DNA of 64,000 nt from Iphinoe sp. HA4291-MV1. GTDB taxonomy: Bacteria; Cyanobacteriota; Cyanobacteriia; Cyanobacteriales; Nostocaceae. The stretch lies in assembly GCA_019359415.1 (NCBI GenBank), contig JAHHHH010000021.1:22890-86889 (forward strand). The letters are read 5' to 3'. Positions 41,561 through 58,235 of this stretch are shown here, piece by piece (position 1 is the first letter of the stretch; every line of letters starts with the position of its first letter). The translations under genes were made by a program, and so were the position numbers. Under the pieces are notes generated by a model. That model made no database searches and was not told the origin of the DNA. It worked only from the letters and a program-made list of their open reading frames with translations.

Positions 41561-42964
41561 ATGGATTTCAGTAAAACAGACACAACGCGATATCTCTGCG
41601 CTGCTGCTTATCTGGACAAGAAGTTTCGTGATAAAGTAATAGAGCAAATTGTTACAGAGAAGTACAAAGCTATTGCTCCATCCTATGGGGTTGATCTATT
41701 AACAGTAATTCAACACTGCTTTGTAGCAGCAAAACGAGAATTTTTTAGAGATATACTTCTTTCTGTCTTATCTTTACTTTGTTTAGCTAGTTTATTTACA
41801 TTATTCTTACCTTGTTACTTAATTACTTATTTGATTGTTTTTCGCTATGAGTGGATTACCCGTTATGGAATTATCGCTAAAGGCTTAGCAAGAAGAAACT
41901 TTGCTTCAATTGTTTTAAACTCTAACTCAAAAGAAAGAATCAATAAAAAAATAGAGAAAATAGCTATAGAACAAAATAGTAACTTGATCATTTACGGAGG
42001 ATTTTCTCCATTTGTAGGTGCCGGATTTGACATTGGTGGATGGTCTTTTGCTTTGAATCTCAAAAATGTAAGAGAGGAGATTGGAAAAACTTTACAACCT
42101 ATTGATTTTGAAGTAAATGAGTTATACAACTACATAGTACATGCACTAGCCAAATTAAATTTATATGGGCTAAGTATTGAAGATAAGCTATGCGTAAATG
42201 GAGAAGAGATTAGAGATAACACAACATTTCTGCCCAATCCATTGAGCCGTCCGTCTTCTCAAGTAGCACCTGATTTTATCAAGAAATTTGTCAATACAAG
42301 TGCCTATTTTATTCGCTACTACAAGCATATTAAAGTCGTTAGTTGGCGTGGAGACTTAGTTTTTTCTGTTTTCATCAGATTTTTTAAAATTCATGAAAAA
42401 CTATTTGTTGAAAACAGTTATTTTCTACTTACTCCAGTAAAAAATTCCTATCGATTAGCTGATGCTATTGAACCAGAGATAAGTTTTAAGAAAATACGAG
42501 AGTTACTACTACAGACTTTACTGACTAGTTTGCTGTTCTTGGTATTGTCTCCATTTAGTCTAATTGGCAAAATTCTTGAGATCTTGCTAGAGAAAAGACG
42601 CCAGAAACAACAGAGACATATAGTCAAAGAAACTCCGAATTTCAATTATGGTGCAGTTTACAGTATACGTGAACTTGCAAGTTCTTCAGAATATAATCAG
42701 TATTTTCAAAAGCTCGACAAAGAGATGTACATGAAAATTATTGAGCGACAAATTATAGACAGCCTTGTTGAGTTTTTAGAAAGTAAAAATATCGACACTT
42801 CAGATTTAAAAGAAAGAAAAACAGCAATATTCAATAATGGAATGATTATTTCTGGTGGTTCGATTAAGGCTACAAACCTTTCTGTAGGAGAGAAAGCAAC
42901 ATCAGTATTAGGTGACTTTGTTCAATCAGTAACACCTAAACCATCAGCAAATCAGCCTGATTAA
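41561..42964 (+). CDS. Unknown membrane protein with a C-terminal glycine-rich motif
   Basis: A 467-residue protein I do not recognise. Two hydrophobic regions are visible: residues about 65-94 and about 310-345, so both ends probably face the cytoplasm. Between them is a soluble part with a Gly-rich stretch (YGGFSPFVGAGFDIGGWSFALNL). The C-terminus carries GMIISGGSIKATNLSVGEKA (residues 427-446), which lines up with GIQMNGGEISSENMAVGNEA near the start of the next gene product. The gene is AT-rich and 73 bases upstream of that gene, in the same direction. The shared motif suggests the two products belong to one complex or regulate each other. No enzyme motif is visible. Confidence 0.65.
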   Translation: MDFSKTDTTRYLCAAAYLDKKFRDKVIEQIVTEKYKAIAPSYGVDLLTVIQHCFVAAKREFFRDILLSVLSLLCLASLFTLFLPCYLITYLIVFRYEWITRYGIIAKGLARRNFASIVLNSNSKERINKKIEKIAIEQNSNLIIYGGFSPFVGAGFDIGGWSFALNLKNVREEIGKTLQPIDFEVNELYNYIVHALAKLNLYGLSIEDKLCVNGEEIRDNTTFLPNPLSRPSSQVAPDFIKKFVNTSAYFIRYYKHIKVVSWRGDLVFSVFIRFFKIHEKLFVENSYFLLTPVKNSYRLADAIEPEISFKKIRELLLQTLLTSLLFLVLSPFSLIGKILEILLEKRRQKQQRHIVKETPNFNYGAVYSIRELASSSEYNQYFQKLDKEMYMKIIERQIIDSLVEFLESKNIDTSDLKERKTAIFNNGMIISGGSIKATNLSVGEKATSVLGDFVQSVTPKPSANQPD

Positions 42965-43036
42965 TAAGGTAAAATACAGTCTTTTGAGACAATGAATTAA
43001 AGCAAGTTGACAGAGCAAAAATTTAAGGAGGTCATC

Positions 43037-43579
43037 ATGAGTAGTAGTACCGGAAATCAAGGAATTCAGATGAACGGTGGTGAGATCTCATCTGAAAATA
43101 TGGCGGTAGGAAATGAGGCAAAGGCAATTAAAAATATGACTAATCGAAATGTAGACAAGAGCAATACCATTAACATAAACGGTACAACTGGCAACATCGG
43201 AGGTATTGCAGCAGGGCAAGATATGATAGGAGTTACAGTCGGCGATATTAGTGGTGTGGTCACCAATAATATTGGCAAACTGCAAGATTCAGATGTACCA
43301 GAAGCGCCAAAACTGGCAGAGTTGCTCAAGCAACTGCAAGCAGCGATTGAAGCAGAGCCTAACTTGACTTTAGAGGATAAAGCAGAGGCATTGGAGCAGG
43401 TAAAAGCAATAGCGGAAGCAGGGCAAAATCCCAAAGAAGGCGTGATGCAAAAGACTGCAAAAACAGCAATGAGGATATTGAAAGGAATATTCTCTGAGCT
43501 ACCAAATGTGTCTAAACTCGTTGAAGAGTCTGCCAAATTATTGCCCATCATAGCCAAAATATTTACTTTGAGCATCTGA
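43037..43579 (+). CDS. Unknown soluble protein sharing the glycine-rich motif
   Basis: A 180-residue protein; the ATG at 43037 follows AAGGAGG, and an in-frame earlier start at 43007 is not needed. Residues 9-28 (GIQMNGGEISSENMAVGNEA) match the C-terminal motif of the preceding membrane protein. Next is a Gly/Asn-rich part (INGTTGNIGGIAAGQDMIGVTVGDISG), then a helical segment (LAELLKQLQAAIEAEPNLTLEDKAEALEQVKAIAEAG) like those seen beside NTPase or effector modules in cyanobacteria, and a hydrophobic C-terminal helix (KLLPIIAKIFTLSI). Function unknown. Confidence 0.65.
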   Translation: MSSSTGNQGIQMNGGEISSENMAVGNEAKAIKNMTNRNVDKSNTININGTTGNIGGIAAGQDMIGVTVGDISGVVTNNIGKLQDSDVPEAPKLAELLKQLQAAIEAEPNLTLEDKAEALEQVKAIAEAGQNPKEGVMQKTAKTAMRILKGIFSELPNVSKLVEESAKLLPIIAKIFTLSI

Positions 43580-45736: not shown

Positions 45737-46708
45737 TCAAGAATGATTTGCAACACAATCGATGAGCTCGAGTAAAGTTTCTGACGTTGAGCGGGGGTGC
45801 CAGTTGAATTCATTACGAGCTTTGGTGGCGTCTACTCGAACACAACGGTCATAAATGTAGTGAACGCGCTCCCGGCTAATGGGTGGTTGCCATTTCAAAA
45901 GGCGTCCTATTGGATTGAGTAAGTTTCCCGCGAGTCTAACCAAAGGTTTTGGGACTTCGCGAGGGACTGAAATGCCTGTTTCTTTGGAGATAATCTTAAA
46001 CATTTCGCGGGTTGTTAGGTCACCAGCAGAAATGATGTAGTAATCTCCCGGTTTACCTTTTTCTACTGCTAGGATCATGGCGGCGGCAAGGTCATCTACA
46101 TGCACAATGCCAGTAATGCGATCGCCACCTGCCCACAGCTTCAGTCGTCCCTTAAGAAATTGCTGTATGACTGGACCAAAATGGGGATCATCCGGACCAA
46201 ATATTCCAGAAGGGAGAATACTGACTACAGAAAGACCATCTTTGGCAAATTGATCTACTAATTGTTGAGCTTGATATTTGGTGCGGTCATAGGCAGAGGA
46301 AAAGTTTTTCTGTGTTCTAGTAAAGGTTTCATTGACAACTTGACCTTTTGTATCACCAAATATACCAATAGTGCTACAGTACACTAATTTGGATATACCA
46401 ACTGCTTGGGCTACTTCCAGCACCGCTCGTGTACCTTCGACATTTACCCGCTCCATTTCTGCCTCATTGACGAGTCCTAACTCTACATAGGCTGCGGTGT
46501 GAAAAACTATGTTTACGCCATTCATTGCCGTTCTTAGTGCATCTCGGTCAGTGATATCACCGTAAACCAATTGGATGTTGCAATTAGACAGAGGTGCTAA
46601 ATTGCTAGATTTACGTACCAATCCAATAACAGTATTGCCTTGCTTTTGTAGAGCTTGCACCAAGTGAGAACCTGTAAATCCATTTGCTCCAGTAACTAGT
46701 GCCTTCAT
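45737..46708 (-). CDS. NAD-dependent epimerase/dehydratase (extended SDR)
   Basis: A 323-residue extended SDR. The Rossmann start is ALVTGANGFTGSHLVQAL, the catalytic pair is SAYDRTKYQAQQL (YxxxK), and SILPSGIFGPDDPHFGP follows. It resembles HpnA-type and other lipid- or sugar-modifying epimerases, and the general class to which bacterial ceramide reductase CerR belongs. Its ATG overlaps the stop of the GNAT gene by 4 bases, so the two are translationally coupled and probably act in the same pathway. I infer a ketone reduction on a lipid intermediate; a sugar epimerase remains possible. Confidence 0.85.
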   Translation of the reverse strand: MKALVTGANGFTGSHLVQALQKQGNTVIGLVRKSSNLAPLSNCNIQLVYGDITDRDALRTAMNGVNIVFHTAAYVELGLVNEAEMERVNVEGTRAVLEVAQAVGISKLVYCSTIGIFGDTKGQVVNETFTRTQKNFSSAYDRTKYQAQQLVDQFAKDGLSVVSILPSGIFGPDDPHFGPVIQQFLKGRLKLWAGGDRITGIVHVDDLAAAMILAVEKGKPGDYYIISAGDLTTREMFKIISKETGISVPREVPKPLVRLAGNLLNPIGRLLKWQPPISRERVHYIYDRCVRVDATKARNEFNWHPRSTSETLLELIDCVANHS

Positions 46709-47856
46709 AAGACTTTTTCATAAATTCGGTAGGTTTTATAAATTTTGCCACCGGCGGCTTCAATTAATTTGCGCGAAGGGAAATTATCTTCAAAAACCCA
46801 AGAAAGTTCTGCTCTTCTATAAGGTTTGCCTTTTTGTTTTCCACCTTGCATTCCCAAATAAATCAAGGCTAGAGGCACCATTTTCCGGCGATACTCTGGT
46901 AAAGAACAAATAGCAATCACGCGTCCTCTATCAATTTGGCGGCGATACCAAAGAAACTTAAGAATTCCCAACCAATTTAATTTCCCGTTGACTTGTTTCA
47001 GTGGAATGTTGTAATCAGGTAAACCCATCCAAAAGCCGATCATTTCCCCGTTATATTCTGCAACTGGGAATACATCAGGGTCTATCAAGTCCCGCAAATC
47101 TTTAGCTTCTTCTAAAAATTCTGCTTCGCTGCGCGGAGTAGAACTCCAGTTAGGGGCAAAAGCACGATTAAAAAGGTGATAAATACTTTTGGCATCTTGC
47201 TCAAATGCTTCACCCTTCGTCGCAATTGGACGAAAGTTAACACCTGATTTGCAAGCAATTCGATAAGCTTTCTCAAATTCTGGTGGTAGAGGTTTATCTA
47301 AAGGGAAATCATAAGCATAAGCATCCTTGGCTTTATGCCAACCATCCCGTTCCATAAACTCAGGATAGTAGGATGGATTGTAAGGCATCATCATCATTGG
47401 CGGTGAGTCAAATCCATCGACTAAAAACAGACAACTGTTGTGGGTAGACAGATCAATTGGACCCCTAGCTACAGTCATACCTTGCTCTCGCAGCCACTTG
47501 CAAGCAGCATCTAGCAGGGCTTGGACGACAGTAAAATCTTGAACGCATTCAAAAAAGCCAAACAGACCGACATTTTGGTTTTCACGGTTTATCAAGCGTT
47601 GATTAATTGCGGCAACAATGCGTCCTACTGCTTGAGAACCGTTGGCTTCTGGTGATATAGCAATAAACTGTTGTAAATTCCCGTACTCAAAGAAAGGATT
47701 ACTGGGTAAAAACTGCTTCGCAACACTGCTGCGAAGAGGTGGTACCCAGTAAGAGTCATTGGCATACACCCTAGCTGGAACATCGAGGAACATTTCGTTA
47801 TCTGCTGTGGTTGTGACTGCCCGGATGTCAAATGTTGCTGTTTGAGTTATTACCAT
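46705..47856 (-). CDS. GNAT-fold acyltransferase (possible ceramide-synthase-like)
   Basis: A 383-residue protein from the ATG at 47856. Family segments: FLDVPARVYANDSYWVPPLRSSV, GRIVAAINQRLI, VGLFGFFECVQDFTVVQALLDAACKWLREQGM, ARGPIDLSTHN and PPMMMMPYNPSYYPEFMERDGWHKAKDAYAY. This is a large bacterial GNAT-like family; the bacterial ceramide synthase described in Caulobacter is also a GNAT-type protein. Because it is coupled to an epimerase-type reductase and shares the locus with an alpha-oxoamine synthase, I infer N-acylation of a long-chain amino compound. The substrate is not proven by sequence. Confidence 0.75.
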   Translation of the reverse strand: MVITQTATFDIRAVTTTADNEMFLDVPARVYANDSYWVPPLRSSVAKQFLPSNPFFEYGNLQQFIAISPEANGSQAVGRIVAAINQRLINRENQNVGLFGFFECVQDFTVVQALLDAACKWLREQGMTVARGPIDLSTHNSCLFLVDGFDSPPMMMMPYNPSYYPEFMERDGWHKAKDAYAYDFPLDKPLPPEFEKAYRIACKSGVNFRPIATKGEAFEQDAKSIYHLFNRAFAPNWSSTPRSEAEFLEEAKDLRDLIDPDVFPVAEYNGEMIGFWMGLPDYNIPLKQVNGKLNWLGILKFLWYRRQIDRGRVIAICSLPEYRRKMVPLALIYLGMQGGKQKGKPYRRAELSWVFEDNFPSRKLIEAAGGKIYKTYRIYEKVL

Positions 47857-47952
47857 TGTTTTAATTTGAATTAATTTATTCAATGTAATATTATTAACTT
47901 TAACTTGGTTTATCTCTTGCCAATTTAACTAAGAAGATACAATAACGTGTGG

Positions 47953-48123
47953 TTAGCACTTAGTCAGCACAACTTTCATGCCGTTTTTTGGTCTTAAAGT
48001 AAGTGAAAATTGAGGTAAAATAGAAAAGTTTGGCATCAGCGTTAACTGAAACTTTTGGGCTATTGTTGCCAGCAACAAAACTGCTTCCATCATTGCAAAG
48101 CCCTTGCCAATAAGCTGTTCCAC
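47953..48123 (-). pseudogene. Cytochrome P450 C-terminal remnant
   Basis: The - strand frame ending at 47953 encodes 56 residues including LIGKGFAMMEAVLLLATIAQ and LTLRPKNGMKVVLTK. These match the helix after the haem loop and the C-terminal strand of bacterial P450s (CIGxxFAMMEA... LRPKNG). The haem-ligand Cys is replaced by Leu two residues before the conserved Gly, and everything upstream is lost. It is a decayed oxygenase gene between the radical SAM and GNAT genes of the lipid-like cluster. No ORF of useful length exposes it. Confidence 0.75.
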
Positions 48124-48217
48124 ATTTAAATTGCATAATTAGGGGGGACCAGATGCCCACCCCACAAGAGTTTTACTTTTAGCTAACATGCAACTTTTAT
48201 GTCCACCAATAGCTTAA

Positions 48218-49807
48218 CTATAGAACAGAGACTTTTCTCGCTTCAGGAATCTGAGTTTTAAGATTTGCTTCTGTTGCCAATAACTTAGTTAGTTCCACTT
48301 CGATTTCATCACGGACAATTTGGCGGTACTCAATGAAGTGTTCGATTAAGGCGCAATTGCTTAGGTAAGGCACAAATGCAGTGGGATTTTGCCGAATAAT
48401 CGAGAACAACTGACGCCAGAACTGGAAGCGTGTATTGCGTTTGATTCCTTGTCGCCAGCAGATGATCAGTACTGCTTGGATCTCGATGAGTTCCAGCATC
48501 CGGAACGGCGCTTTGTGAGCAGTTGGTCTCTTGCCAATAAAGTGCCGATAGACTCGTGAAAGGTAGCGTCTCGGCTCATACAGTTCCCAGAAGCATTTTA
48601 CATACTCACGGGCTAGTTCTTCTGGAGGTCGGGTAGGAATAAAGTTACTCAGCGTCATTTGATGACCATATGTCTCTTGGCTCTCCAACCGTAGACGACC
48701 TTCCTTTTGGAGTCGCTGCCATAGTGCCGTATTGGGCAGAGCCTGTAGCATACCGAACATTGCTTTGGGGATAGCCGTAGCTTCCACAAATTCAATGATG
48801 CGATCGCCTACCCCTGCCTTCTCACCATCAAAGCCAAGGATAAAACCGGCCATCACACTCAAACCTGCCTCATTAATTTTCTGAACCGATTCTATGAGAG
48901 AGTGACGCGTATTTTGGAACTTTTGAGTTAAGGCTAAACTATCTGTGTCCGGTGTCTCAATGCCTAAAAATACAGCGGTAAAGTTGGCAGCAATCATCAG
49001 ATCCAATAGTTCTTGATCTTGTGCCAGATCCACTGAGGCTTCAGTTGCTAAGCGGAAGGGATAGCCGTGGGCTGCTATCCAGGGACCAAGTTCACGCAGC
49101 AAGAGTTTGACATTGCGCTTATTGCCGATGAAATTATCATCTACTATAAAAATTGAGCGCCGCCAACCCAAGTCATAGAGAACCTGTAACTCAGCCAAAA
49201 GCTGGGTAGGTGTTTTTGTACGTGGCTTTCGCCCATAAAGCACAATAATGTCGCAGAACTCGCACTGAAACGGGCAGCCCCGCGAAAACTGCACTGACAT
49301 CTCGTTGTAGACTCTCAGATCCAGCAGGTCAAATCTGGGAATGGGTGTGCTGGTGACATCGGGCTTTTCTCCTTTGGCGCTGAATACTCCACTTGTTTCG
49401 CCCCGTTCTAAAGCTTCTACTAGCATTGGCAAAGTAATCTCGCCCTCATCCAAAACCAGAAAGTCAACCCCTGCTTCCTGCGCTGCTTGAGGAACAGAAG
49501 TGACATAAGGACCACCCGCTGCAACGATTTTGTTTCGTCGCTTTGCCTCGCCAATCAGGTGCAGCATATCTGATTTCTGGACAATCATACCCGAAACAAT
49601 TACCAAATCTGCCCAGTTCCAATCAGATCCAGTTTCCAACCGAACATTGCGGTCTACCAAGCGGAACTCCCAAGTCTGAGGAAGGATAGCCGCAACTGTA
49701 ATCATCCCTAGAGGTGGCAATGAAACTTTGCGCCCGATCAGTTCTAGTGCTTTGTCAAAAGACCAGAAGGACTTAGGAAACAGGGGATATAAAAGTAAAA
49801 CTCGCAT
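48218..49807 (-). CDS. B12-binding domain radical SAM protein (HpnP-like superfamily)
   Basis: A 529-residue protein from the ATG at 49807. It has an N-terminal cobalamin-binding domain (SLPPLGMITVAAILPQTW, WADLVIVSGMIVQKSDMLHLI, AAGGPYVTS), the radical SAM cluster motif CPFQCEFC within FSRGCPFQCEFCDIIVLYGRKPRTKTP, and a C-terminal DUF4070-like part. Relatives include the hopanoid 2-methylase HpnP, but many others have unknown substrates. It follows the amidohydrolase gene by only 16 bases. A role in methylating or rearranging a lipid is plausible from context. Confidence 0.88.
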   Translation of the reverse strand: MRVLLLYPLFPKSFWSFDKALELIGRKVSLPPLGMITVAAILPQTWEFRLVDRNVRLETGSDWNWADLVIVSGMIVQKSDMLHLIGEAKRRNKIVAAGGPYVTSVPQAAQEAGVDFLVLDEGEITLPMLVEALERGETSGVFSAKGEKPDVTSTPIPRFDLLDLRVYNEMSVQFSRGCPFQCEFCDIIVLYGRKPRTKTPTQLLAELQVLYDLGWRRSIFIVDDNFIGNKRNVKLLLRELGPWIAAHGYPFRLATEASVDLAQDQELLDLMIAANFTAVFLGIETPDTDSLALTQKFQNTRHSLIESVQKINEAGLSVMAGFILGFDGEKAGVGDRIIEFVEATAIPKAMFGMLQALPNTALWQRLQKEGRLRLESQETYGHQMTLSNFIPTRPPEELAREYVKCFWELYEPRRYLSRVYRHFIGKRPTAHKAPFRMLELIEIQAVLIICWRQGIKRNTRFQFWRQLFSIIRQNPTAFVPYLSNCALIEHFIEYRQIVRDEIEVELTKLLATEANLKTQIPEARKVSVL

Positions 49808-49823
49808 TGTTTTTGTCAATCGC

Positions 49824-51233
49824 TTAATACGTACCTGCTGGTTTAGTGATTGTTTGGGCTAATAGGTTAGTGGGTAAAGATTGGCGCAGGCGATCACCAT
49901 ATAATGCTAAAGCATTACCACCCAACAACAGTTCTAAATGCTCAAGCGAGTAATCAGCAACTGTTGCGGCATCTTTAACACAGTTATGGAGTACGCCATC
50001 CCAGTGACCATAATCGCCAGAGAAACAAGCCAAGCGCTTACCAACTTCGCCCATAGCAACGTGGAGATAAGCAGGACCTGGGTCATCTGATTCAAAGGAG
50101 GTAAATATTTGACCGCGTTCAAAATATTCTAGAGGATCTCGGTGACGCAGGTCGTAGTGTTCGTACAAACTAGCATCTTCTATTTTTGTGGGGTCATGTT
50201 GGACATTCCACAATAAATCGAAGAGGTTTTTAGCTTGGCTAATCAAGTTAATATTATTGTGGCTACCTCTTTCTTGAATCATCAGCTTGGTGAATTCCAT
50301 CAAGGAAGGGCGATAGGAATTTTTGGGGTCGAAGTCACGGATGCGTTTTTCCCAATGCTCGTGAAAAGCGTGAGCTAGATCCGGTACCCAACCGCAACCG
50401 CCTTCTAAAAAGCCTACCCGCAGTGTGGGAAAGCGCTCGAAGGCTCCATCAAAAACCATACGTGCTAAAGCCAGTTGTTGCTGGTTCCGCTGCACGAAAA
50501 TGTGGGTCAACACAAATGTTTCGGTGTGGTCGGAAATACCACCTACCATATAAGAACCAGGACCACCGTGAATGCCAAGTGCAATGTTGAGGTCTACGGC
50601 TGCTTGTAATATTGGTTCAAAGTCAGGATGGCTAATTGTTTTGCAGGTGCGAATTTCTGGAAAAGCTTCCGGTGCTTTGGGATGGGGAATTGGCAAATTG
50701 GGAGCAACGGCTACGCCAATCATGCCTAGTTCGTTGACACAACGGTGCATTTCAGCAACCGCAGCGTCTACATCTTGTAGAGGTAATACACCAATGGGTT
50801 TGAGTCTATTATTATACCCCTGACAATCCTCGGCAATGTAGGTATTATAAGCACGACAAAAAGCGATCGCTAAATCTTTATCTAAAAGGCTGGAGAAGAC
50901 TAAATTCAATGTGCCGTAGATTACCTGGACATCAATACCTTCGGCATCCATGTGTTCTATTCGCACCTTATTGAACATTGCCCCCAAAGTTGTATCTGGA
51001 TGCAAGTTGCGAAAGCCACCTTTCCCCATACCCTGCGGTTGAGGAAACATCCGCATAAAGTCATTTTTACCCGTTGCTGGATTGAAGTCGATGATGCGCG
51101 CCCGTTGATCTCCCAGGCTATCAATTACTAGACCGATGCGATCGCGATACTCCGGTTCCAGATAATCCCGCATTACCAAGGGATTTTCTAACTTATGGGC
51201 ATCAGCATCAATTACTAGTATGCCTTGATACAT
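49824..51233 (-). CDS. Amidohydrolase-2 family metal-dependent hydrolase
   Basis: A 469-residue TIM-barrel protein. It begins ILVIDADAHKLENP (the metal-binding xDxH variant) and has IALGIHGGPGSYMVGG, GFLEGGCGWVPDLAHAFHEHW and CFSGDYGHWDGV, giving His and Asp ligands at the expected places. The family contains decarboxylases (ACMSD-like) and hydrolases. It is upstream of and probably cotranscribed with the radical SAM gene. The substrate is unknown; decarboxylation or hydrolysis of an acyl intermediate is a guess. Confidence 0.85.
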   Translation of the reverse strand: MYQGILVIDADAHKLENPLVMRDYLEPEYRDRIGLVIDSLGDQRARIIDFNPATGKNDFMRMFPQPQGMGKGGFRNLHPDTTLGAMFNKVRIEHMDAEGIDVQVIYGTLNLVFSSLLDKDLAIAFCRAYNTYIAEDCQGYNNRLKPIGVLPLQDVDAAVAEMHRCVNELGMIGVAVAPNLPIPHPKAPEAFPEIRTCKTISHPDFEPILQAAVDLNIALGIHGGPGSYMVGGISDHTETFVLTHIFVQRNQQQLALARMVFDGAFERFPTLRVGFLEGGCGWVPDLAHAFHEHWEKRIRDFDPKNSYRPSLMEFTKLMIQERGSHNNINLISQAKNLFDLLWNVQHDPTKIEDASLYEHYDLRHRDPLEYFERGQIFTSFESDDPGPAYLHVAMGEVGKRLACFSGDYGHWDGVLHNCVKDAATVADYSLEHLELLLGGNALALYGDRLRQSLPTNLLAQTITKPAGTY

Positions 51234-51314
51234 AAATTCTGCTCCTCAAAATTTTTCTAGCGTTTCAGTTACCGCTTAGATTTCTCTAATACTTAGCAAT
51301 TTTTGAGATATAGC

Positions 51315-51378
51315 ATGAGAAAATACGGACACCACGAGACTATCAAGCCTATTCCCTGTTAAGAGTTCCCTGCTATAA
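51315..51378 (+). repeat. Dispersed repeat, copy 2 (first copy at 5368)
   Basis: ATGAGAAAATACGGACACCA and the following TTCCCTG/GAGTTCCCTGCTATA elements match the copy at 5368-5430 with a few changes and a moved TTCCCTG unit. It is intergenic. Confidence 0.6.
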
Positions 51379-51386
51379 CTGATTCC

Positions 51387-51746
51387 TTAAGCTGTTTTTT
51401 GCTTGAAGTGTTCCCAAACTCGGCGCAGACCAAACCAGTTCTCAAAAGACCACAACATTGAGACTAAGATGGTGATTCCCGGATACTTAACAAAGGCGGG
51501 TTCATTTTTCTCGAAGACTGCATGTCCGCCTAGGGCAAAAACTTGGGTCAGTACCAAGCAAACGAGTGTCATTCGCCAATCATAGAACAAAAAAACAGCA
51601 GCCGCGATCGTCAGCACGTTGGTTAAGTGATGCAAAACCTGATTGATTGGATGCTGATGACTGGCAACAAAATGGGCTTTTGCCTCTTGAAAGTAATTCA
51701 AATTGGTTTTTCTCCAACCGCACCTAATGAGGAATATTAGCAACAT
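51387..51746 (-). CDS. Mpo1/DUF962-like membrane protein
   Basis: A 119-residue protein. FVASHQHPINQVLHHLTNVLTIA and FALGGHAVFEKNEPAFVKYPG resemble DUF962, whose yeast member Mpo1 is an Fe(II) dioxygenase that shortens 2-hydroxy fatty acids from phytosphingosine. The His residues in the first motif and GHAVFEKN in the second are the expected metal ligands. The start may instead be a TTG at 51701, which has GGAG at good spacing; the longer form is kept because no evidence excludes it. It lies between hydroxylase and hydrolase genes on the same strand. Confidence 0.68.
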   Translation of the reverse strand: MLLIFLIRCGWRKTNLNYFQEAKAHFVASHQHPINQVLHHLTNVLTIAAAVFLFYDWRMTLVCLVLTQVFALGGHAVFEKNEPAFVKYPGITILVSMLWSFENWFGLRRVWEHFKQKTA

Positions 51747-51819
51747 TTTAGGAATAGTATCACTGAGTTTTTAGCGATACTGTTCTTAGAAACAAAAGTT
51801 TTTATGTTGTGGCAATAGT

Positions 51820-52344
51820 TTACCACCACCGGAGTTGTAAATAACCCCGCTCAGGTTGTTGAAGTTCTTCTTGTGTTAACCATTCCACAGGCTTGTATGT
51901 ACCAAAGACCCGATCCCACCAGTCTACGGCTAAACCAAAGTTGTGATGCCACATACCGTACTTGTGATGTACGTAGTGAACGGGCATTTTCATCCAGAAG
52001 CATTTGGTTGGGTTTTCGTGCTGTAGCTGATGAGCATAAGCTGAAAATGCAGCGTAAACTAGTCCACCCAGGAACCAACCAATTCCCGCCTCCCAAGAGA
52101 GGAAGAACATAACAGCCATCACCACAAAGCTACCTATAACATAGTCTCGAAATTCCCATACCACCCCCTGTCCTTCATTGCGACGGTGATGGTCGCGGTG
52201 ACGTTTTCCGATACGAGGTGAGACGTGCATCAAGCGATGTAGCCAGTATTCAACCAAACTCGCAAAGACAAACGCCAAAGCAAAACAGGCGATTCCTATA
52301 GAAAGCTTCTCTACGAGACGCTCCGCGAACGCTAACAGAAGCAC
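51820..52344 (-). CDS. Sterol desaturase / fatty acid hydroxylase family protein
   Basis: A 174-residue membrane protein with the di-iron His clusters of the family: HRLMH (36-40), HRDHH (49-53), HYVHH (123-127) and WHH (132-134). Such enzymes hydroxylate or desaturate lipids, including sphingolipid acyl chains and carotenoids. The start is a GTG, and the first codons (LAFAERLVEKL) come from a dispersed cyanobacterial repeat (CTACGAGACGCTCCGCGAAC on the + strand). It is the first gene of the leftward run towards 45737 and is divergent from the GH3 gene. Confidence 0.88.
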   Translation of the reverse strand: MLLLAFAERLVEKLSIGIACFALAFVFASLVEYWLHRLMHVSPRIGKRHRDHHRRNEGQGVVWEFRDYVIGSFVVMAVMFFLSWEAGIGWFLGGLVYAAFSAYAHQLQHENPTKCFWMKMPVHYVHHKYGMWHHNFGLAVDWWDRVFGTYKPVEWLTQEELQQPERGYLQLRWW

Positions 52345-52513
52345 GAATCTTTTTCCCTACAGTTTTCCAAACTTAACTTATCACTAATTTACAACTGTTG
52401 CGACAAACTTGTTCTCAATTCATGTAAATTTACTACAGAAGTAGCATCAGCTTTTGAAAAAATGATTGTGTTTTGGTCTTTTTAGTTGCAAGTTTTGATT
52501 TCGCAAAACCTCA

Positions 52514-54205
52514 ATGACAAATTTTGTAGTTCCACTTTTGACTACTGTAGCAAGACAAGTCAAGGCAAATTTCGTGAGGAAAACTCGTCAAACTGATGCA
52601 GTGCAGGAGCAGTTTTTACGCAGTCTCCTGCTGGCTCATCAAGAAACCGAACTTGGTCAAAAGTATGGATTAAGAAATATTAAAACAATCGAGCAATTTC
52701 AAGAGCGGGTTCCGATTCTACCTTACAGCAGCTATGAACCGTATACTGAGCGCATTGCCCAAGGGGAAACAAACATTCTGACAGCCGAGCCGGTTGTCTA
52801 CCTGACGCTAACGAGTGGTTCGACAGGGAAAAAGAAAATGATCCCAACAACAAGGCGATCGCAGAATGCTTTCCGAAGAGCTACTCTCACCAGCATTGGT
52901 TTTTTAACTGAAGCGCTGAAGAGACGAAAACTAGAGTTTGGTAAACTACTTTTAACTAACTCAGTACAAACTTGGGGACGTACTAGTGGTGGAATAGATT
53001 ATGGTCCATCTAGTGCGGGCGTTTTGCGCATGGACAAGTTTCTTTACAAACAACTGTTTGCCAATCCTTACGAAACTCTACAGCCAGCAGATAGCGTAGC
53101 CCGCCACTACGTTTGTTTGCTATTTGCACTGCGTGAGGAGTCAACGCGAGGAATGATAGCCAACTTTCCCATGCTCAACCTGCGAAGTGCCAACTATTTG
53201 GAACGCTATGCAGAAGATTTGCTCTTAGATTTAGAGAAAGGAACAATTGCAGCTTGGTTAGAACTCGAACCAGAAGTTCGTATTCAACTAGAGCAGCAAC
53301 ATTCAGCAACTCCAAGGCGAGCCGCTCAATTACGAGAAATTTTGAAGTCAGAGGGGCGGCTTACACCTAAACTCGCATGGCAGAATCTTTCTTTTATCGC
53401 CAATGCACGGGGAGGAACGTCGGATTTTTATTTTGAGCGATTTCCGGCATACTTCGGAGATACTCCCATATTTGGTGCTGCTTATTCATCTGCAGAAGGG
53501 ATGTTTAGCATTTACACTGATGTCAATGATGATGCTAGCGTTCTGGCGATTGAAAGTAGTTTTTTTGAGTTTATCCCAGAAGATCAGTGGGAAGCAGAGC
53601 ATCCCAAAACTTTACTTGCTACTGAAGTTAAAGCAGGAGAACGCTACCGTATTCTGATTACCAACTATGGTGGCTTCTACCGTTACGACATTGGTGATGT
53701 TGTCGAGGTAGTGGGTTTTTACGAAACTGCTCCTTTGATAGTATTTCGTTATCGTCGCGGAGGGTTCGTTTCTTCTACAACAGAAAAGACAACAGAATTT
53801 CATGCAACTCAGGTGATGCAAGCTTTACAGCAGGAATTTAATTTACTTTTAGAAGATTTCTGTATTACCTTGTCAGATAATGAATTCCCCGCTCGCTATT
53901 TAGCTAACATTGAGCTAGCGTCTGGTTATATCCTTGACAATCCCCAAGTTTTCTTAGCTAGTTTTGATCGCAAGCTTCAGGAAGTTAATACTCACTATGA
54001 AATCAGTCGTCGAGATACAATTCCTTCTCCCCGATTACGGATTTTATCCTCAGGGAGCTTTGCGATTATCCGCCAGCGTCAGCTGCAAAAAGGTATTCCA
54101 GATTCTCAGTTGAAGTTTCCCCATGTTAGTGAGGACCGAAATTTTCTTGCTGAATTGTCTGTGGAACAGGAGATTAGGCTTCCAGGAGATCTGAAACGTG
54201 CTTGA
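52514..54205 (+). CDS. GH3-family acyl-adenylate enzyme
   Basis: A 563-residue protein with the GH3 (auxin-responsive) fold: an adenylation P-loop TLTSGSTGKKKMIP, PIFGAAYSSAEGMFSIY, and YRILITNYGGFYRYDIGDVVEVVGF. In plants GH3 enzymes join amino acids to acyl acids through an acyl-AMP; bacterial members are poorly known and may activate fatty acids. It is divergent from the leftward cluster with a 169-base shared promoter region. In the proposed pathway it could activate an acyl chain or conjugate an amino acid; this is inference. Confidence 0.85.
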   Translation: MTNFVVPLLTTVARQVKANFVRKTRQTDAVQEQFLRSLLLAHQETELGQKYGLRNIKTIEQFQERVPILPYSSYEPYTERIAQGETNILTAEPVVYLTLTSGSTGKKKMIPTTRRSQNAFRRATLTSIGFLTEALKRRKLEFGKLLLTNSVQTWGRTSGGIDYGPSSAGVLRMDKFLYKQLFANPYETLQPADSVARHYVCLLFALREESTRGMIANFPMLNLRSANYLERYAEDLLLDLEKGTIAAWLELEPEVRIQLEQQHSATPRRAAQLREILKSEGRLTPKLAWQNLSFIANARGGTSDFYFERFPAYFGDTPIFGAAYSSAEGMFSIYTDVNDDASVLAIESSFFEFIPEDQWEAEHPKTLLATEVKAGERYRILITNYGGFYRYDIGDVVEVVGFYETAPLIVFRYRRGGFVSSTTEKTTEFHATQVMQALQQEFNLLLEDFCITLSDNEFPARYLANIELASGYILDNPQVFLASFDRKLQEVNTHYEISRRDTIPSPRLRILSSGSFAIIRQRQLQKGIPDSQLKFPHVSEDRNFLAELSVEQEIRLPGDLKRA

Positions 54206-54240
54206 TCAGAATTAAGAATAAAAAAGCAAACAAGCGAATT

Positions 54241-54445
54241 GAGAAAGCAATATGCCTAAATACTTGCGGAAAACACCAAAATGAGAAAGTAAAAAGGCAT
54301 TTTGAGAAAGCAATATGCCTAAATACTTGCGGAAAACACCAAAATGAGAAAGTAAAAAGGCATTTTGAGAAAGCAATATGCCTAAATACTTGCGGAAAAC
54401 ACCAAAATGAGAAAGTAAAAAGGCATTTTGAGAAAGCAATATGCC
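54241..54445 (+). repeat. 63-bp tandem repeat, three copies plus a partial fourth
   Basis: Copies start at 54241, 54304 and 54367, each beginning GAGAAAGCAATATGCC; a 16-base partial copy starts at 54430. The unit is a multiple of three, so long chance frames open on both strands; these are not genes. AGGCAT/ATGCCT in each junction can form a small stem. Confidence 0.9.
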
Positions 54446-54475
54446 TTTTTGCTGACTTGAAAATAGACAAGGGGA

Positions 54476-54505
54476 CAATTCCCAATTCCCAATTCCCAAT
54501 TCCCA
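54476..54505 (+). repeat. AATTCCC heptamer tandem repeat
   Basis: Four consecutive AATTCCC units, an STRR of the kind common in heterocystous cyanobacteria, next to the 63-bp repeat. Confidence 0.8.
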
Positions 54506-54549
54506 TTTTCATGCGTTATTGGTGTACTCCGTTCATGATGGCTACTTAC

Positions 54550-55698
54550 TTATTGCTTGGGCGCAAACAGAAACAGTCCTGTGATAGCTGCAACACCCGC
54601 AGCCGCATAAAACACTCCTTGCAAGCCAAAGTATTGGAGTATAGGTCCTAGTAAAATCGGTGACAGAAATTGTCCCAAAAACCCCACACCTGTTCCAGCT
54701 GCTAGCACACTGGATTTTATTTGCGACGGAGCAAGATTGGCGAGGGCGCTATAGAGACTAGGCAAAACAATGCCGAAGCCAGCACCAAATAAAATTGCAC
54801 TCAGCAAAATCCAGTTGAGTTCGTGTAATAACGGTATCGTAGCTAAAGTTACAGCCATGACTACAAATCCCAAGCCTACTGATTTTACTTCTCCCAAGCG
54901 TCGGGCTAACCTACTGGCTCCAAAGGCTGATATAAAAGCTGCACCAATTGCCCTTGATGCTAAGACAATTCCATTTAAAACAGGTCCGGCTCCAATCGTT
55001 ACTTTCAGGTAGAGGGGAGCATAAATCACAACGGCGTACATCGCTACTGATGTTAGACCGACACCAAGTAGCAACTTTAAGGCATGAGGAGAAGTCAAAA
55101 CTTTAAACAATTGCTCGCCCAGTTGATTTTCGCTGAGTTTTGCTGGTTCTGGTTGCTTTTCCTGAATAATTAAGCCAACCAAAAGGGCAATCGGTATCCC
55201 CAGCCCGTAAAGGTAGAAGGTGTTTTGCCACCTGTCAGCACCAACCCAACCCCCTAAGATTGGATCACTAATGCCAGTGATGGTCAGAGTTGTGGTTGCT
55301 AAGGCTAATGCCTGCGATCGCTCCTTACCTTCATACATACTCCCTAACAACCCCAGACTAGCCGCAGCAATTCCACCACTGGCTGCGCCCAGCAACCCTC
55401 GCGTTACTAATAAGGGCCAAAAACTTTGTATCCAGGCTCCTGCTGTACCAACCAATGCGTAGACAAGCAGCGAGGGGAGCAGCACGCGTAACCTACCAAC
55501 CTTGTCAGCCAATATACCCAGCGGGGGACTGAATAAGGCAATGGTTAAGCAATGCATACTCACTAAAATACCTGCTAACTCTGGAGCGAGGTGGAGTTCT
55601 TGCACGATCTCTGGTAAAATTGGCGCAACGATTCCGCCCGCCATCGTGGTCAGACAGCCCGCTAAAAGCAGCACTAACAGCTTGAAATCGCGTAACAT
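54550..55698 (-). CDS. MFS transporter
   Basis: A 382-residue protein with 12 hydrophobic helices. The signature between helices 2 and 3 is SPPLGILADKVGRLRVLLPS, and the mid-loop motif is present at LARRLGEVKSV. It is of the multidrug-efflux (DHA) size and style. It lies between the GH3 gene and the Rieske gene, so it may export the product of the surrounding cluster. Substrate unknown. The ATG at 55698 follows a TTG in the same frame. Confidence 0.88.
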   Translation of the reverse strand: MLRDFKLLVLLLAGCLTTMAGGIVAPILPEIVQELHLAPELAGILVSMHCLTIALFSPPLGILADKVGRLRVLLPSLLVYALVGTAGAWIQSFWPLLVTRGLLGAASGGIAAASLGLLGSMYEGKERSQALALATTTLTITGISDPILGGWVGADRWQNTFYLYGLGIPIALLVGLIIQEKQPEPAKLSENQLGEQLFKVLTSPHALKLLLGVGLTSVAMYAVVIYAPLYLKVTIGAGPVLNGIVLASRAIGAAFISAFGASRLARRLGEVKSVGLGFVVMAVTLATIPLLHELNWILLSAILFGAGFGIVLPSLYSALANLAPSQIKSSVLAAGTGVGFLGQFLSPILLGPILQYFGLQGVFYAAAGVAAITGLFLFAPKQ

Positions 55699-55859
55699 CA
55701 ATGAAACCCTGAAAACTTGGCAGCTAAAACCTAGGCAGGCAAATCACCATAAGTGAAAAGCCGTCGTGCTACCTGCATTTATGCTGATAAGATGATTGAT
55801 TTCAAAAATACTATAATTTTGAGTATTATAACAGAGACAGGCAACAGAAGTCGGAGCAA

Positions 55860-56942
55860 ATGGAACTAGCCACGACCCTAAAAAGCCAGAAAGTTCAAAA
55901 CCGTATCCGCGAGGTGGGAATTAACCCAAATTACTGGTATGCGGTTGGGTGGGCAAGCCAACTTAAGGTTGGAGAAATTATGCCCGTGACTATCTGGCTT
56001 CGTGCGATCGCAGTTTACCGCGATGTCAACGGTCAGCTTCATGCCTTAGAGGATGTTTGTCCTCATAAGGGAGTCGCACTACACAAGGGTAAAGTACACG
56101 GGTGCAACTTAGCTTGTGCTTATCACGGCTGGGAATTTAACGATGAAGGTAATTGCGTTAGCATTCCTTACCTTCCCAAAGAACAAAAACTTCCCCGCGC
56201 CCAAGCCCGCAGTTATGCGATTCAGGAAAAATACAATCTGATTTGGATTTTCCCAGGCGATCGCAAAGAAGCTGCAACTGGTGAGCTACCTGATATAAGA
56301 GAATTTGACGATCCTGACTGGTTTCTGGTTCCTGTCCCAGCGCGAATAAAGGCACACTTTACAATTTGCAACGAAAATTCTATGGACGTATTCCATGGTT
56401 TTCTGCACCAAAAGTTGCAGGGCTGGTTTGATCCAGTGCTGATTAATTTAAGAGAAACAGAAGCATCAGTCCGCACAGAATACATGGTTTCCTATAAAGG
56501 TCGCATGGCAAAGTTTTTGGGATTGAGCGAACGAGCCGACCAGGTGACAACTCTACCTGTTGCAACCGAATACCGCTATCCTAACTTTTACAGTTCCCTC
56601 CAAGGAATTTCTACTCTGTACCTGATGCGGCTGCCGATAGGATTTACTGAAACCCGGTCTATTGCTTTCTTCTTTTTCAAAATTCGCCTTCCCAAATGGT
56701 TGCTGGTGTTAATAGCACCAATACTGCGAACACTGCTACAACGTTTCATATTACTAAGATTTTTAGCCCAAGATATTGAAATGATGGAGAGTGAACAGCA
56801 GACCTATCTAGCTAATCCCCAGCAGTGTTATGTAGAAATAAATCCAGCAATTATTGCCGTTCAGCGACTAGTTATCCGGCAATATGAACAATTCACGCAA
56901 AAATCTAGTCACCAAAATCCAATGGGAAGTGGTACAAGGTAA
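55860..56942 (+). CDS. Rieske non-haem iron oxygenase
   Basis: A 360-residue protein. The Rieske cluster is CPHKG (Cys67, His69) and CAYHGW (Cys86, His89). The catalytic iron site is ENSMDVFHGFLH, with Asp176, His179 and His183. A hydrophobic stretch near residues 280-300 (LPKWLLVLIAPILRTLL) suggests membrane contact, as in lipid or pigment oxygenases. It is 12 bases ahead of the alpha-oxoamine synthase gene and clearly cotranscribed with it. Substrate is unknown; oxidation of a lipid or amine in this cluster is inferred. Confidence 0.9.
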   Translation: MELATTLKSQKVQNRIREVGINPNYWYAVGWASQLKVGEIMPVTIWLRAIAVYRDVNGQLHALEDVCPHKGVALHKGKVHGCNLACAYHGWEFNDEGNCVSIPYLPKEQKLPRAQARSYAIQEKYNLIWIFPGDRKEAATGELPDIREFDDPDWFLVPVPARIKAHFTICNENSMDVFHGFLHQKLQGWFDPVLINLRETEASVRTEYMVSYKGRMAKFLGLSERADQVTTLPVATEYRYPNFYSSLQGISTLYLMRLPIGFTETRSIAFFFFKIRLPKWLLVLIAPILRTLLQRFILLRFLAQDIEMMESEQQTYLANPQQCYVEINPAIIAVQRLVIRQYEQFTQKSSHQNPMGSGTR

Positions 56943-56954
56943 GAGGACTTTACT

Positions 56955-58235
56955 GTGCAAATTGTCAAAGAGTATGTCCAGCGCTGGTACGAGAGTGGAC
57001 TAGATCCTGATGAGTATATTTGCTATCAAAAGCAGGGTAATTTAGTTGAGATCGAAGAAGCAACAACTGGTGAGCGTCGAACAATTCTTAGCTTCTGCAC
57101 GAATGATGTTTTGGGGCTAGTTCAAGAAGAAGCTGTTAAACAAGCTGCTATTAATGCTATTCTCAAGTATGGAACGTCTAACAGTTCCTGCTCAGTCTTG
57201 AGCGGTCGTATTGACCTGCACCAACAATTAGAAGACGAGATTTCAGCTTTTAAGCATTTGCCCCACACACAGCTATTTATGAATGCCTGGATGGCAATGC
57301 AAGCCTTGATGGATGCCTTCTGCCATTTAGCAATTCCAGTGCCAGGATTTCAGAATACCCAAGAGACTTTGATTCTCACTGATGTCCTCAATCATGGCTG
57401 TATTGTCTCAGCAATTGTCAATGCTGGGAACCGTTCCGGCAAAGTGTTTGGTCATAGCCCTCGCGTCCGAGTCAAAGCGTACCGTCATTGTGACGTAGAA
57501 GATTTAGCTCGCAAACTGCATCGGTATGCGCGAGCCAATGATCGGATTATGGTGATCTCTGATGCCGTCTTCTCAATGGACGGGGATATTGCACCACTGC
57601 CAGATATGATCAACGTACTGCACAATTACGAAGGCAGCGTACTTGTTATGGATGAGGCACATGCCAGCGGGGCAATTGGCGCAACTGGAAGAGGGATTTA
57701 TGAACACTTTAATATCATACCGTCTCATGCGATTGAGCGGGGCGTAGTGCCGCTAATTATGACAACTTTCTCTAAGTTTGCCGCTTCAGCCGGAGCAGCG
57801 ATCAGTACCCATGTTGCAGAGTTGAAACCACTCTTAAATGTTTCTCCTACTTCAATTGGCACAATTTCTTTGCCGCCACCAATGACTGCTGCTGCATTGG
57901 AGAGTATTCGTCAGGTTCGCAAATTTCCAGAACAGGTAAAAAGACTTCAGGATAATACTTGGTACTTGCGATCGCGCTTAGCTGAGCATGGTTTTGTTGC
58001 TCTTGGCGAAACCAATGTTGTGCCAGTTATTTTACCAACAGAAATTAATCCTAAGATGTTTGGTAGACAAATCATGGAAGACCACGGTATTTGGGTATCT
58101 CCGATTTGGTTTGTTGCTAAACCTCGGATTCGGATTACTGTTAATGCCCTCCATACACGAGAGGATATGGAGCGTTTGATTGCAGGGATGGTAGCAACTC
58201 GAGACTTGTTGTACAAACCAACAATTAGTGCATAG
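56955..58235 (+). CDS. Alpha-oxoamine synthase (serine palmitoyltransferase-like PLP enzyme)
   Basis: A 426-residue fold-type I PLP enzyme starting at GTG. Motifs of the family: SCSVLSGRIDLHQQLEDEIS, LNHGC (His147), ISDAVFSMDGDIAPLPDMI, VMDEAHASGAIGATGRG (Asp233, His236) and TTFSKFAASAG (PLP Lys274). Family members (SPT, KBL, BioF, ALAS, CqsA) condense an amino acid with an acyl thioester. The exact branch is not certain: SPT-type motifs usually read GT(F/L)SK and here the first residue is Thr. Context with acyl-modifying genes favours a lipid amino-ketone product. Confidence 0.88.
   Translation: MQIVKEYVQRWYESGLDPDEYICYQKQGNLVEIEEATTGERRTILSFCTNDVLGLVQEEAVKQAAINAILKYGTSNSSCSVLSGRIDLHQQLEDEISAFKHLPHTQLFMNAWMAMQALMDAFCHLAIPVPGFQNTQETLILTDVLNHGCIVSAIVNAGNRSGKVFGHSPRVRVKAYRHCDVEDLARKLHRYARANDRIMVISDAVFSMDGDIAPLPDMINVLHNYEGSVLVMDEAHASGAIGATGRGIYEHFNIIPSHAIERGVVPLIMTTFSKFAASAGAAISTHVAELKPLLNVSPTSIGTISLPPPMTAAALESIRQVRKFPEQVKRLQDNTWYLRSRLAEHGFVALGETNVVPVILPTEINPKMFGRQIMEDHGIWVSPIWFVAKPRIRITVNALHTREDMERLIAGMVATRDLLYKPTISA

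Follow-up and report, generated by a model that had tools for sequence, protein, structure and literature searches.

According to PMC8895605, ceramides have been reported from two cyanobacteria, although neither the genes nor an enzyme responsible for them have been identified, and the locus described here raises the question of whether cyanobacteria possess a counterpart of bacterial ceramide synthesis. The locus was analysed in a 64,000-nt stretch (the window) of contig JAHHHH010000021.1 from Iphinoe sp. HA4291-MV1, and all coordinates are given as window positions. Its central genes encode a divergent alpha-oxoamine synthase (AOS; 56955..58235, plus strand; Pfam Aminotran_1_2), proposed as the first enzyme, an N-acyltransferase of the YghO/bacterial ceramide synthase (bCerS) family (GNAT; 46705..47883, minus strand; Pfam Acetyltransf_1, weak at 28.9 bits against a cut-off of 20.7), an extended short-chain dehydrogenase/reductase (SDR) proposed as a ketone reductase in a CerR-like role (EPIM; 45737..46708, minus strand; Pfam Epimerase, 141.9 bits) and a FA_hydroxylase-family protein (FAH; 51820..52344, minus strand; 58.2 bits against a cut-off of 31). 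These genes form a real, conserved four-gene core, which is accompanied by optional tailoring genes. A first-pass annotation had read the locus as ceramide-like, with serine palmitoyltransferase (SPT), bCerS and CerR as the models for the three enzymes; of this reading, the co-conserved unit and the GNAT family stood, whereas the SPT and CerR identities did not. On balance, we regard it as probable that the locus is the cyanobacterial counterpart of bacterial ceramide synthesis.

Co-occurrence was determined in an order-level sample of 120 genomes and a phylum-level sample of 244 genomes. In the former, orthologues of AOS (67–100% identity) were found in 43 genomes, and the other AOS-family proteins among the matches listed were BioF-like, with at most 38% identity to the window AOS. 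Among these matches, exactly two AOS-family proteins were present in 38 of the 43 AOS-positive genomes, so that the window-type enzyme is the sole candidate besides the BioF-like one in them; the remaining five genomes showed three. Orthologues of GNAT and EPIM each occurred in 44/120 genomes, comprising the 43 AOS-positive ones and one other (G101), and FAH was present at 68% identity or more in the same 44, with weaker relatives in 13 further genomes (two at 62%, eleven at 49–60%). All three genes were thus found together in 43/43 AOS-positive and 1/77 AOS-negative genomes, and 43/44 GNAT-positive genomes carry AOS. No AOS was found in G101, whose assembly consists of 440 contigs, which means that the gene may be lost from the assembly only. 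The Fisher p value for co-occurrence of GNAT, EPIM and FAH with AOS (~6e-32) overstates the strength of the association because the genomes share ancestry. In the phylum sample, AOS, GNAT and EPIM were detected in an identical set of 20/244 genomes (12 shared with the order-level sample, 8 from other orders). In one genome (G065), the three genes are scattered over a single contig (at 2.31, 2.84 and 1.11 Mb, respectively), yet all of them are retained. FAH, present with every AOS, is part of the core. Within the window's family, AOS was found in 30/193 genomes, and it was not found in any of the 7 other genomes of the genus; the closest relative (92% identity) is that of Nostoc sp. WHI (L103), followed among the named loci kept by that of an Aphanothece metagenome-assembled genome (MAG; L104; 89%). 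Either gene transfer from family to family or losses on several occasions could account for this patchy pattern. Two genomes without the window-type enzyme (G051 and G089) contain AOS domains within frames of 2465 aa (G051:C212:52696-53736) and 1116 aa (G089:C1:2522440-2523468), perhaps as parts of multidomain synthases.

Gene order was compared in two sets of loci, which are not independent because some loci are shared (L031 and L104 seem to represent a single contig). The first comprised 40 fetched of the 42 AOS loci other than the window's own in the 120 genomes, and the second 80 loci from named genomes (L103–L182), kept from 160 relatives, with short DNA for some loci. In the first set, GNAT followed AOS in the same orientation at a distance of no more than 4 kb in 33/40 loci, a Rieske oxygenase gene lay upstream of AOS on the same strand in 24/40, and 16 of the 23 GNAT–EPIM pairs showed the 4-bp overlap. 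In the second, GNAT was directly downstream of AOS on the same strand in 29/80 loci, and the 4-bp overlap was seen in 15 of 28 pairs. At more than 45% identity, the 80 loci contained Rieske (67), GNAT (38), MFS (36), EPIM (28), FAH (28), GH3 (22), Mpo1 (20), amidohydrolase (19) and radical SAM (6) genes, and two of them (L110 and L133) held all ten genes together. The common order, on one strand, is AOS, GNAT, EPIM. The window represents a rearranged form, since its GNAT–EPIM pair is located on the other side of AOS and on the opposite strand, as is also the case in Nostoc sp. WHI and Calothrix sp. NIES-4105 (L130). In one MAG titled Scytonema (L114), AOS, Rieske and MFS genes were present, and GNAT and EPIM were not found within its 14-kb stretch. 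As the same neighbourhood recurs in other cyanobacteria, the grouping goes beyond chance. The comparison of synteny proposed in the first-pass annotation thus agreed with co-occurrence in identifying AOS, GNAT and EPIM as one unit. Only one of the 80 titles was non-cyanobacterial (L116, a MAG titled Tatlockia); this locus, which has nine of the genes and lacks only radical SAM, is probably a mis-binned contig carrying a cyanobacterial-type cluster. Other families recurring within 9 kb of AOS in the 80 loci, annotated from one representative each, were an ABC ATPase (21 loci), a MacB/FtsX-type permease (17), aspartyl/asparaginyl beta-hydroxylases (10) and Cupin_8 proteins (10). An aspartyl beta-hydroxylase is likewise found in the SPT locus of P. 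veronii.

Searches with GNAT in NCBIfam and the PDB returned no relative, with matches at chance level only, and its family was therefore established via plasmid records. A tblastn search against plasmids yielded 44 records, all at less than 60% identity, including E. coli YghO (E 4e-33) and a Sphingomonas protein (E 7e-39), with 28–29% identity over 95–96% of the query. The E. coli member of the family is encoded by yghO, whose locus ECD_02850 is listed in the relevant part of PMC9386255 as the counterpart of Caulobacter CC_1154, which is required for dihydroceramide formation; it is this homology that places GNAT in the bacterial ceramide synthase family. Of the 44 plasmid neighbourhoods, 11 were inspected, and an annotated AOS was found nearby in six (Rubrobacter, Streptomyces, Sphingomonas, E. 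coli, P. veronii and Aureispira). Twelve cyanobacterial sequences were included in the GNAT tree. By near full-length homology, GNAT is assigned to the YghO/CC_1154 (bCerS) family, as had been proposed for it, and N-acylation of a long-chain base is its predicted activity. Most relatives begin about 10 residues later, so that the ATG at 47856 is the more probable start codon than the TTG at 47883.

The AOS was compared with hidden Markov models of SPT, BioF and KBL, a check that the first-pass annotation had suggested, and remained below every cut-off. Its best NCBIfam score was with bioF (235.5 bits, cut-off 426.45), and the KBL models gave 185.9 of 460 (PRK06939) and 155.8 of 493 bits (TIGR01822). 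Among the controls, four reference SPTs exceeded their own cut-offs, as did two cyanobacterial BioFs; three GNAT-linked AOS proteins of other phyla also scored below all curated cut-offs. The genome's own bioF is a separate gene (454.9 bits). Two trees were calculated, one with 37 rows, including 14 cyanobacterial AOS (that of the window and those of 13 of 120 loci), and one with 22 rows, including five cyanobacterial AOS; the Nonomuraea AOS fragment was left out. In the larger tree, the 14 cyanobacterial proteins formed a clade of their own with a support of 100/100 and a long stem. In the smaller one, with long branches limiting both trees, neither a position as sister to the SPT group (approximately unbiased (AU) test, p 0.281) nor one beside BioF (p 0.259) was rejected, and the AOS profile was about equally near to BioF and SPT in profile comparison. 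The catalytic residues are kept, as K274, H147, D233, H236, N50 and R393 align with those of SPT and other AOS proteins. Two further features set the protein apart, namely an N-A-W motif where most references have S/T-G-Y/F and a segment shortened by four residues, relative to most references, before the conserved Arg. Judged from these alignments and trees, the AOS represents a separate deep clade of alpha-oxoamine synthases with retained catalytic residues. On a small, conjugative Bacteroides ovatus plasmid (L086), an AOS gene lies beside a TetR regulator gene, and similar genes occur on several Bacteroides plasmids.

EPIM contains the GxxGxxG and YxxxK motifs and has an extended-SDR fold. 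Its highest NCBIfam scores, both below cut-off, were obtained with HpnA (208.9 bits) and SdmB (145.3 bits); HpnA is likewise the top-scoring model for the CerR references, again below its cut-off. Profile similarity between EPIM and CerR extends over the full length (hhalign E 2.8e-39 over 303 columns). A tree was constructed with eight cyanobacterial sequences, leaving out three of 13 SDR paralogue loci (L191–L193), and a joint CerR–EPIM clade was mildly rejected (AU p 0.0285, with long branches). The proposed identification of the reductase as CerR was therefore not borne out, since EPIM falls outside the CerR clade. FAH consists of 174 aa and comprises the hydroxylase domain only; its sole sequence relatives among solved structures are entries for SCS7, the ceramide hydroxylase of yeast, which match weakly (E 0.0055 and 0.0086).

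The four core genes are best read as a pathway to an N-acylated, reduced and oxygenated long-chain amino lipid. Briefly, AOS would make a 2-amino-ketone, the YghO/bCerS-type GNAT would add a second acyl chain to the amine, EPIM would reduce the ketone, and FAH, in many genomes together with the Rieske oxygenase, would add oxygen to the chains. The Mpo1-like, amidohydrolase, GH3, radical SAM and MFS genes would serve as lineage-dependent extras. Cyanobacteria work with acyl groups bound to acyl carrier protein (acyl-ACP). For this reason, and because rhodobacterial SPTs use ACP (PMC9386255, in the part dealing with these enzymes), acyl-ACP would be the likely acyl donor. The step order suggested here mirrors the gene order and the Spt–bCerS–CerR order proposed for Caulobacter. 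We infer every reaction of this pathway, along with its substrates, step order and product class, from comparison with characterised systems.

Several results weigh against equating this pathway with ceramide synthesis. With the three SPT models of NCBIfam, AOS reached only 170.6 of 640, 162.7 of 500 and 119.2 of 670 bits, and in the trees, SPTs and the GNAT-linked AOS proteins of other phyla formed a clade without the cyanobacterial enzymes (99/93 and 96/95), so that neither the cut-offs nor the phylogeny support the initial assignment of the synthase as an SPT. The amino-acid pocket is changed, with Cys79-Ser80 replacing Ser-Arg of the GSR motif; Trp112 is another residue assigned to this pocket. 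Similarly, CerR and the AOS-linked SDRs of other phyla formed a clade without EPIM (96/96). Members of the YghO family lacked a nearby AOS in five of the 11 plasmid neighbourhoods, within the stretch viewed (Diaphorobacter, Roseomonas, Nonomuraea, Tunicatimonas and a Chloroflexota bacterium); the Diaphorobacter and Roseomonas neighbourhoods contain LptF/G and other lipid genes, the former also an acyl-AMP ligase and, at its edge, an ACP, and in Nonomuraea an SDR adjoins GNAT, with AOS present only as a fragment. Finally, no head-group or ACP-sized gene family was found in five or more of the 80 loci among open reading frames (ORFs) of at least 70 aa. In its mode of action, the gene set appears to resemble the ceramide synthesis of other bacteria, yet AOS and EPIM, two of the three enzymes, lie outside the groups of their counterparts. 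A firm placement with KBL/BioF, membership of GNAT and the epimerase in unrelated families or a lack of co-conservation, named at the outset as grounds for abandoning the ceramide-like reading, were all absent. More tentatively, and at somewhat less than even chances, the locus may reflect an independent cyanobacterial assembly, in which separate AOS and SDR lineages were joined to a shared bCerS-type acyltransferase and an obligatory chain hydroxylase, yielding an unreported, possibly non-serine, class of N-acylated amino lipids in roughly one in three genomes sampled from the order.

Three other readings were weighed against a long-chain amino lipid pathway. AOS, GNAT and SDR could make a small N-acyl amino-ketone or amino-alcohol that is released as a signal or defence compound, with the MFS protein exporting and the oxygenases varying it, and the patchy distribution within the family and genus, together with the variable oxygenases and transporters nearby, would fit such a role. 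Some AOS enzymes do make diffusible signals, as known for CqsA, to which the window AOS shows a weak match. However, the GNAT family is the one whose members attach long chains to ketones of the sphingoid type (PMC9386255 and PMC11087976), the four core genes are kept across many families and in other orders as well, unlike most specialised clusters, and an MFS gene is present in only 36/80 loci, which makes this reading unlikely. It is highly improbable that the Rieske protein and the SDR serve together in the tailoring of sterols or hopanoids (in the manner of SdmA/SdmB and HpnA) and just happen to lie beside AOS and GNAT: SdmA is indeed the top-scoring model for the Rieske protein (222.1 bits), as are HpnA and SdmB for EPIM, all below cut-off, but CerR references share the preference for HpnA, and EPIM tracks AOS and GNAT (44/120 genomes) rather than the Rieske gene, whose orthologues (at least 56% identity) occur in 28/120 genomes, every one of them AOS-positive. 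Sterol or hopanoid tailoring was thus set aside as the main role.

A second BioF or KBL, in an ordinary cofactor or amino-acid locus, would agree with the top NCBIfam score of AOS, the position beside BioF left standing by the AU test and a profile equally near to BioF and SPT. Yet the score stays far from the cut-off of 426 bits and a separate bioF is present in the genome, on which grounds AOS as a second BioF was rejected; moreover, AOS is at most 38% identical to the listed BioF-like proteins, as against at least 67% within its own clade, and co-occurs with an acyltransferase of the ceramide synthase family, so that we consider this explanation scarcely credible.

Seen as a long-chain amino lipid pathway, the cyanobacterial system shares its three enzyme types, and the family of its GNAT, with ceramide synthesis in Caulobacter and rhodobacteria (Spt, bCerS (CC_1154/YghO) and CerR (CC_1164)). 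Its commonest gene order matches the reaction order proposed in PMC11087976 (Spt, then bCerS, then CerR). The sequence of these reactions is itself disputed for Caulobacter (PMC11324152), where CerR has a periplasmic location. The cyanobacterial system differs in that its AOS falls outside the SPT clade and its SDR outside the CerR clade, and in that FAH belongs to the invariant core. Genes for AcpR or AasR were not seen among the window cluster ORFs and their Pfam families. Triads of AOS, GNAT and SDR genes on plasmids of Rubrobacter and Streptomyces have the same order on one strand as those of cyanobacteria, and their AOS proteins, like the cyanobacterial ones, score below the SPT cut-offs; in contrast to the cyanobacterial proteins, their AOS groups with SPT (99/93) and their SDR with CerR (96/96). 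Cyanobacterial BioF of the Npun_R3567 type shares the fold and catalytic residues of AOS, but the two form separate clades, each supported at 100/100. Two yeast proteins show sequence resemblance, with SCS7 weakly related to the single-domain FAH and Mpo1 matching a small window protein that passes the Pfam Mpo1-like cut-off.

No earlier report of this cyanobacterial gene set was found in the open-licence literature. In PMC8895605, testing of other cyanobacterial AOS proteins is recommended, and N. punctiforme is described as having only a BioF-type AOS (Npun_R3567, 394 aa); E. coli expressing it formed no ketosphinganine, and sphingolipids were not found in N. punctiforme itself. The locus offers a defined four-gene candidate set and named AOS-carrying strains, such as Nostoc sp. 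FACHB-152, Calothrix sp. NIES-4105, Aliterella atlantica CENA595, Phormidesmis priestleyi ULC007 and Spirulina subsalsa FACHB-351, with N. punctiforme as a contrast, so that the genetic basis of cyanobacterial ceramides becomes a testable question. A large Black Sea survey (PMC11334938), whose entry filter admitted only SPT hits with E 1e-70 or better, identified Spt-like proteins in MAGs belonging to 38 phyla, which brought the total to 40. An SPT-based screen at this level would probably miss the window AOS, because the latter's best match to an SPT of solved structure has E 3.5e-38 (with another program and database than those of the survey). If the independent assembly is real, searches that start from SPT would miss the pathway; if its product is a ceramide analogue, the locus would provide a second pathway assembly from different synthase and reductase lineages, of relevance to membrane evolution. 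A link of the gene set to the cerebroside of Moorea (mooreaside A; described in part of PMC6272925) was not shown, as no Moorea was found among the titles of the 80 named loci kept from 160 relatives and PMC8895605 states a length of 571 aa for its second AOS. The ceramides listed for N. flagelliforme in the pertinent part of PMC9222375 were not used as support, since the same list names GM3 gangliosides, which are implausible for a bacterium.

The ten ORFs of the initial annotation are all present with the coordinates and strands assigned to them, and Pfam returned the same family for each; the 4-bp overlap of GNAT and EPIM (46705-46708) and the 12-bp gap between the Rieske and AOS genes (56943-56954) were also exact. 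The Rieske oxygenase (RIES; 55860..56942, plus strand; Pfam Rieske, 77.9 bits) is usually encoded directly upstream of AOS. The remaining genes look like optional extras, since they are present in only part of the loci: a GH3-family adenylating enzyme (52514..54205, plus strand; Pfam GH3, 288.4 bits), an MFS transporter (54550..55701, minus strand; Pfam MFS_1, 195.4 bits), whose role in export is a guess, a B12-binding radical SAM protein (48218..49819, minus strand; Pfam B12-binding, Radical_SAM and DUF4070), an amidohydrolase-fold protein (49824..51233, minus strand; Pfam Amidohydro_2) and an Mpo1-like small membrane protein (51387..51746, minus strand; Pfam Mpo1-like, 51.3 bits against a cut-off of 24). 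The amidohydrolase gene occurs in 30/120 genomes (29 of the 43 AOS-positive ones and G101) and lies within 5 kb of FAH in 26 of these 30. The protein is nearest to DitZ (E 5.3e-21), PtmU3 (E 1.7e-15), which we take to be an oxygenase, and ACMSD-type decarboxylases.

Between the GNAT and radical SAM genes lies the P450 C-terminal remnant recognised in the first-pass annotation (47953..48123, minus strand), perhaps the relic of a lost tailoring gene. Its 56-residue frame matches positions 412-457 of the 462 in the Pfam p450 profile (E 2.2e-4), at 20.5 bits just below the cut-off of 22.8. The stretch from the GH3 to the MFS gene contains 3.3 copies of a 63-bp unit (54239-54446), which are 100% identical, and two neighbouring proteins encoded at 41561-43579 share a repeat-like motif around 'GEKA/GNEAKA' close to their ends.

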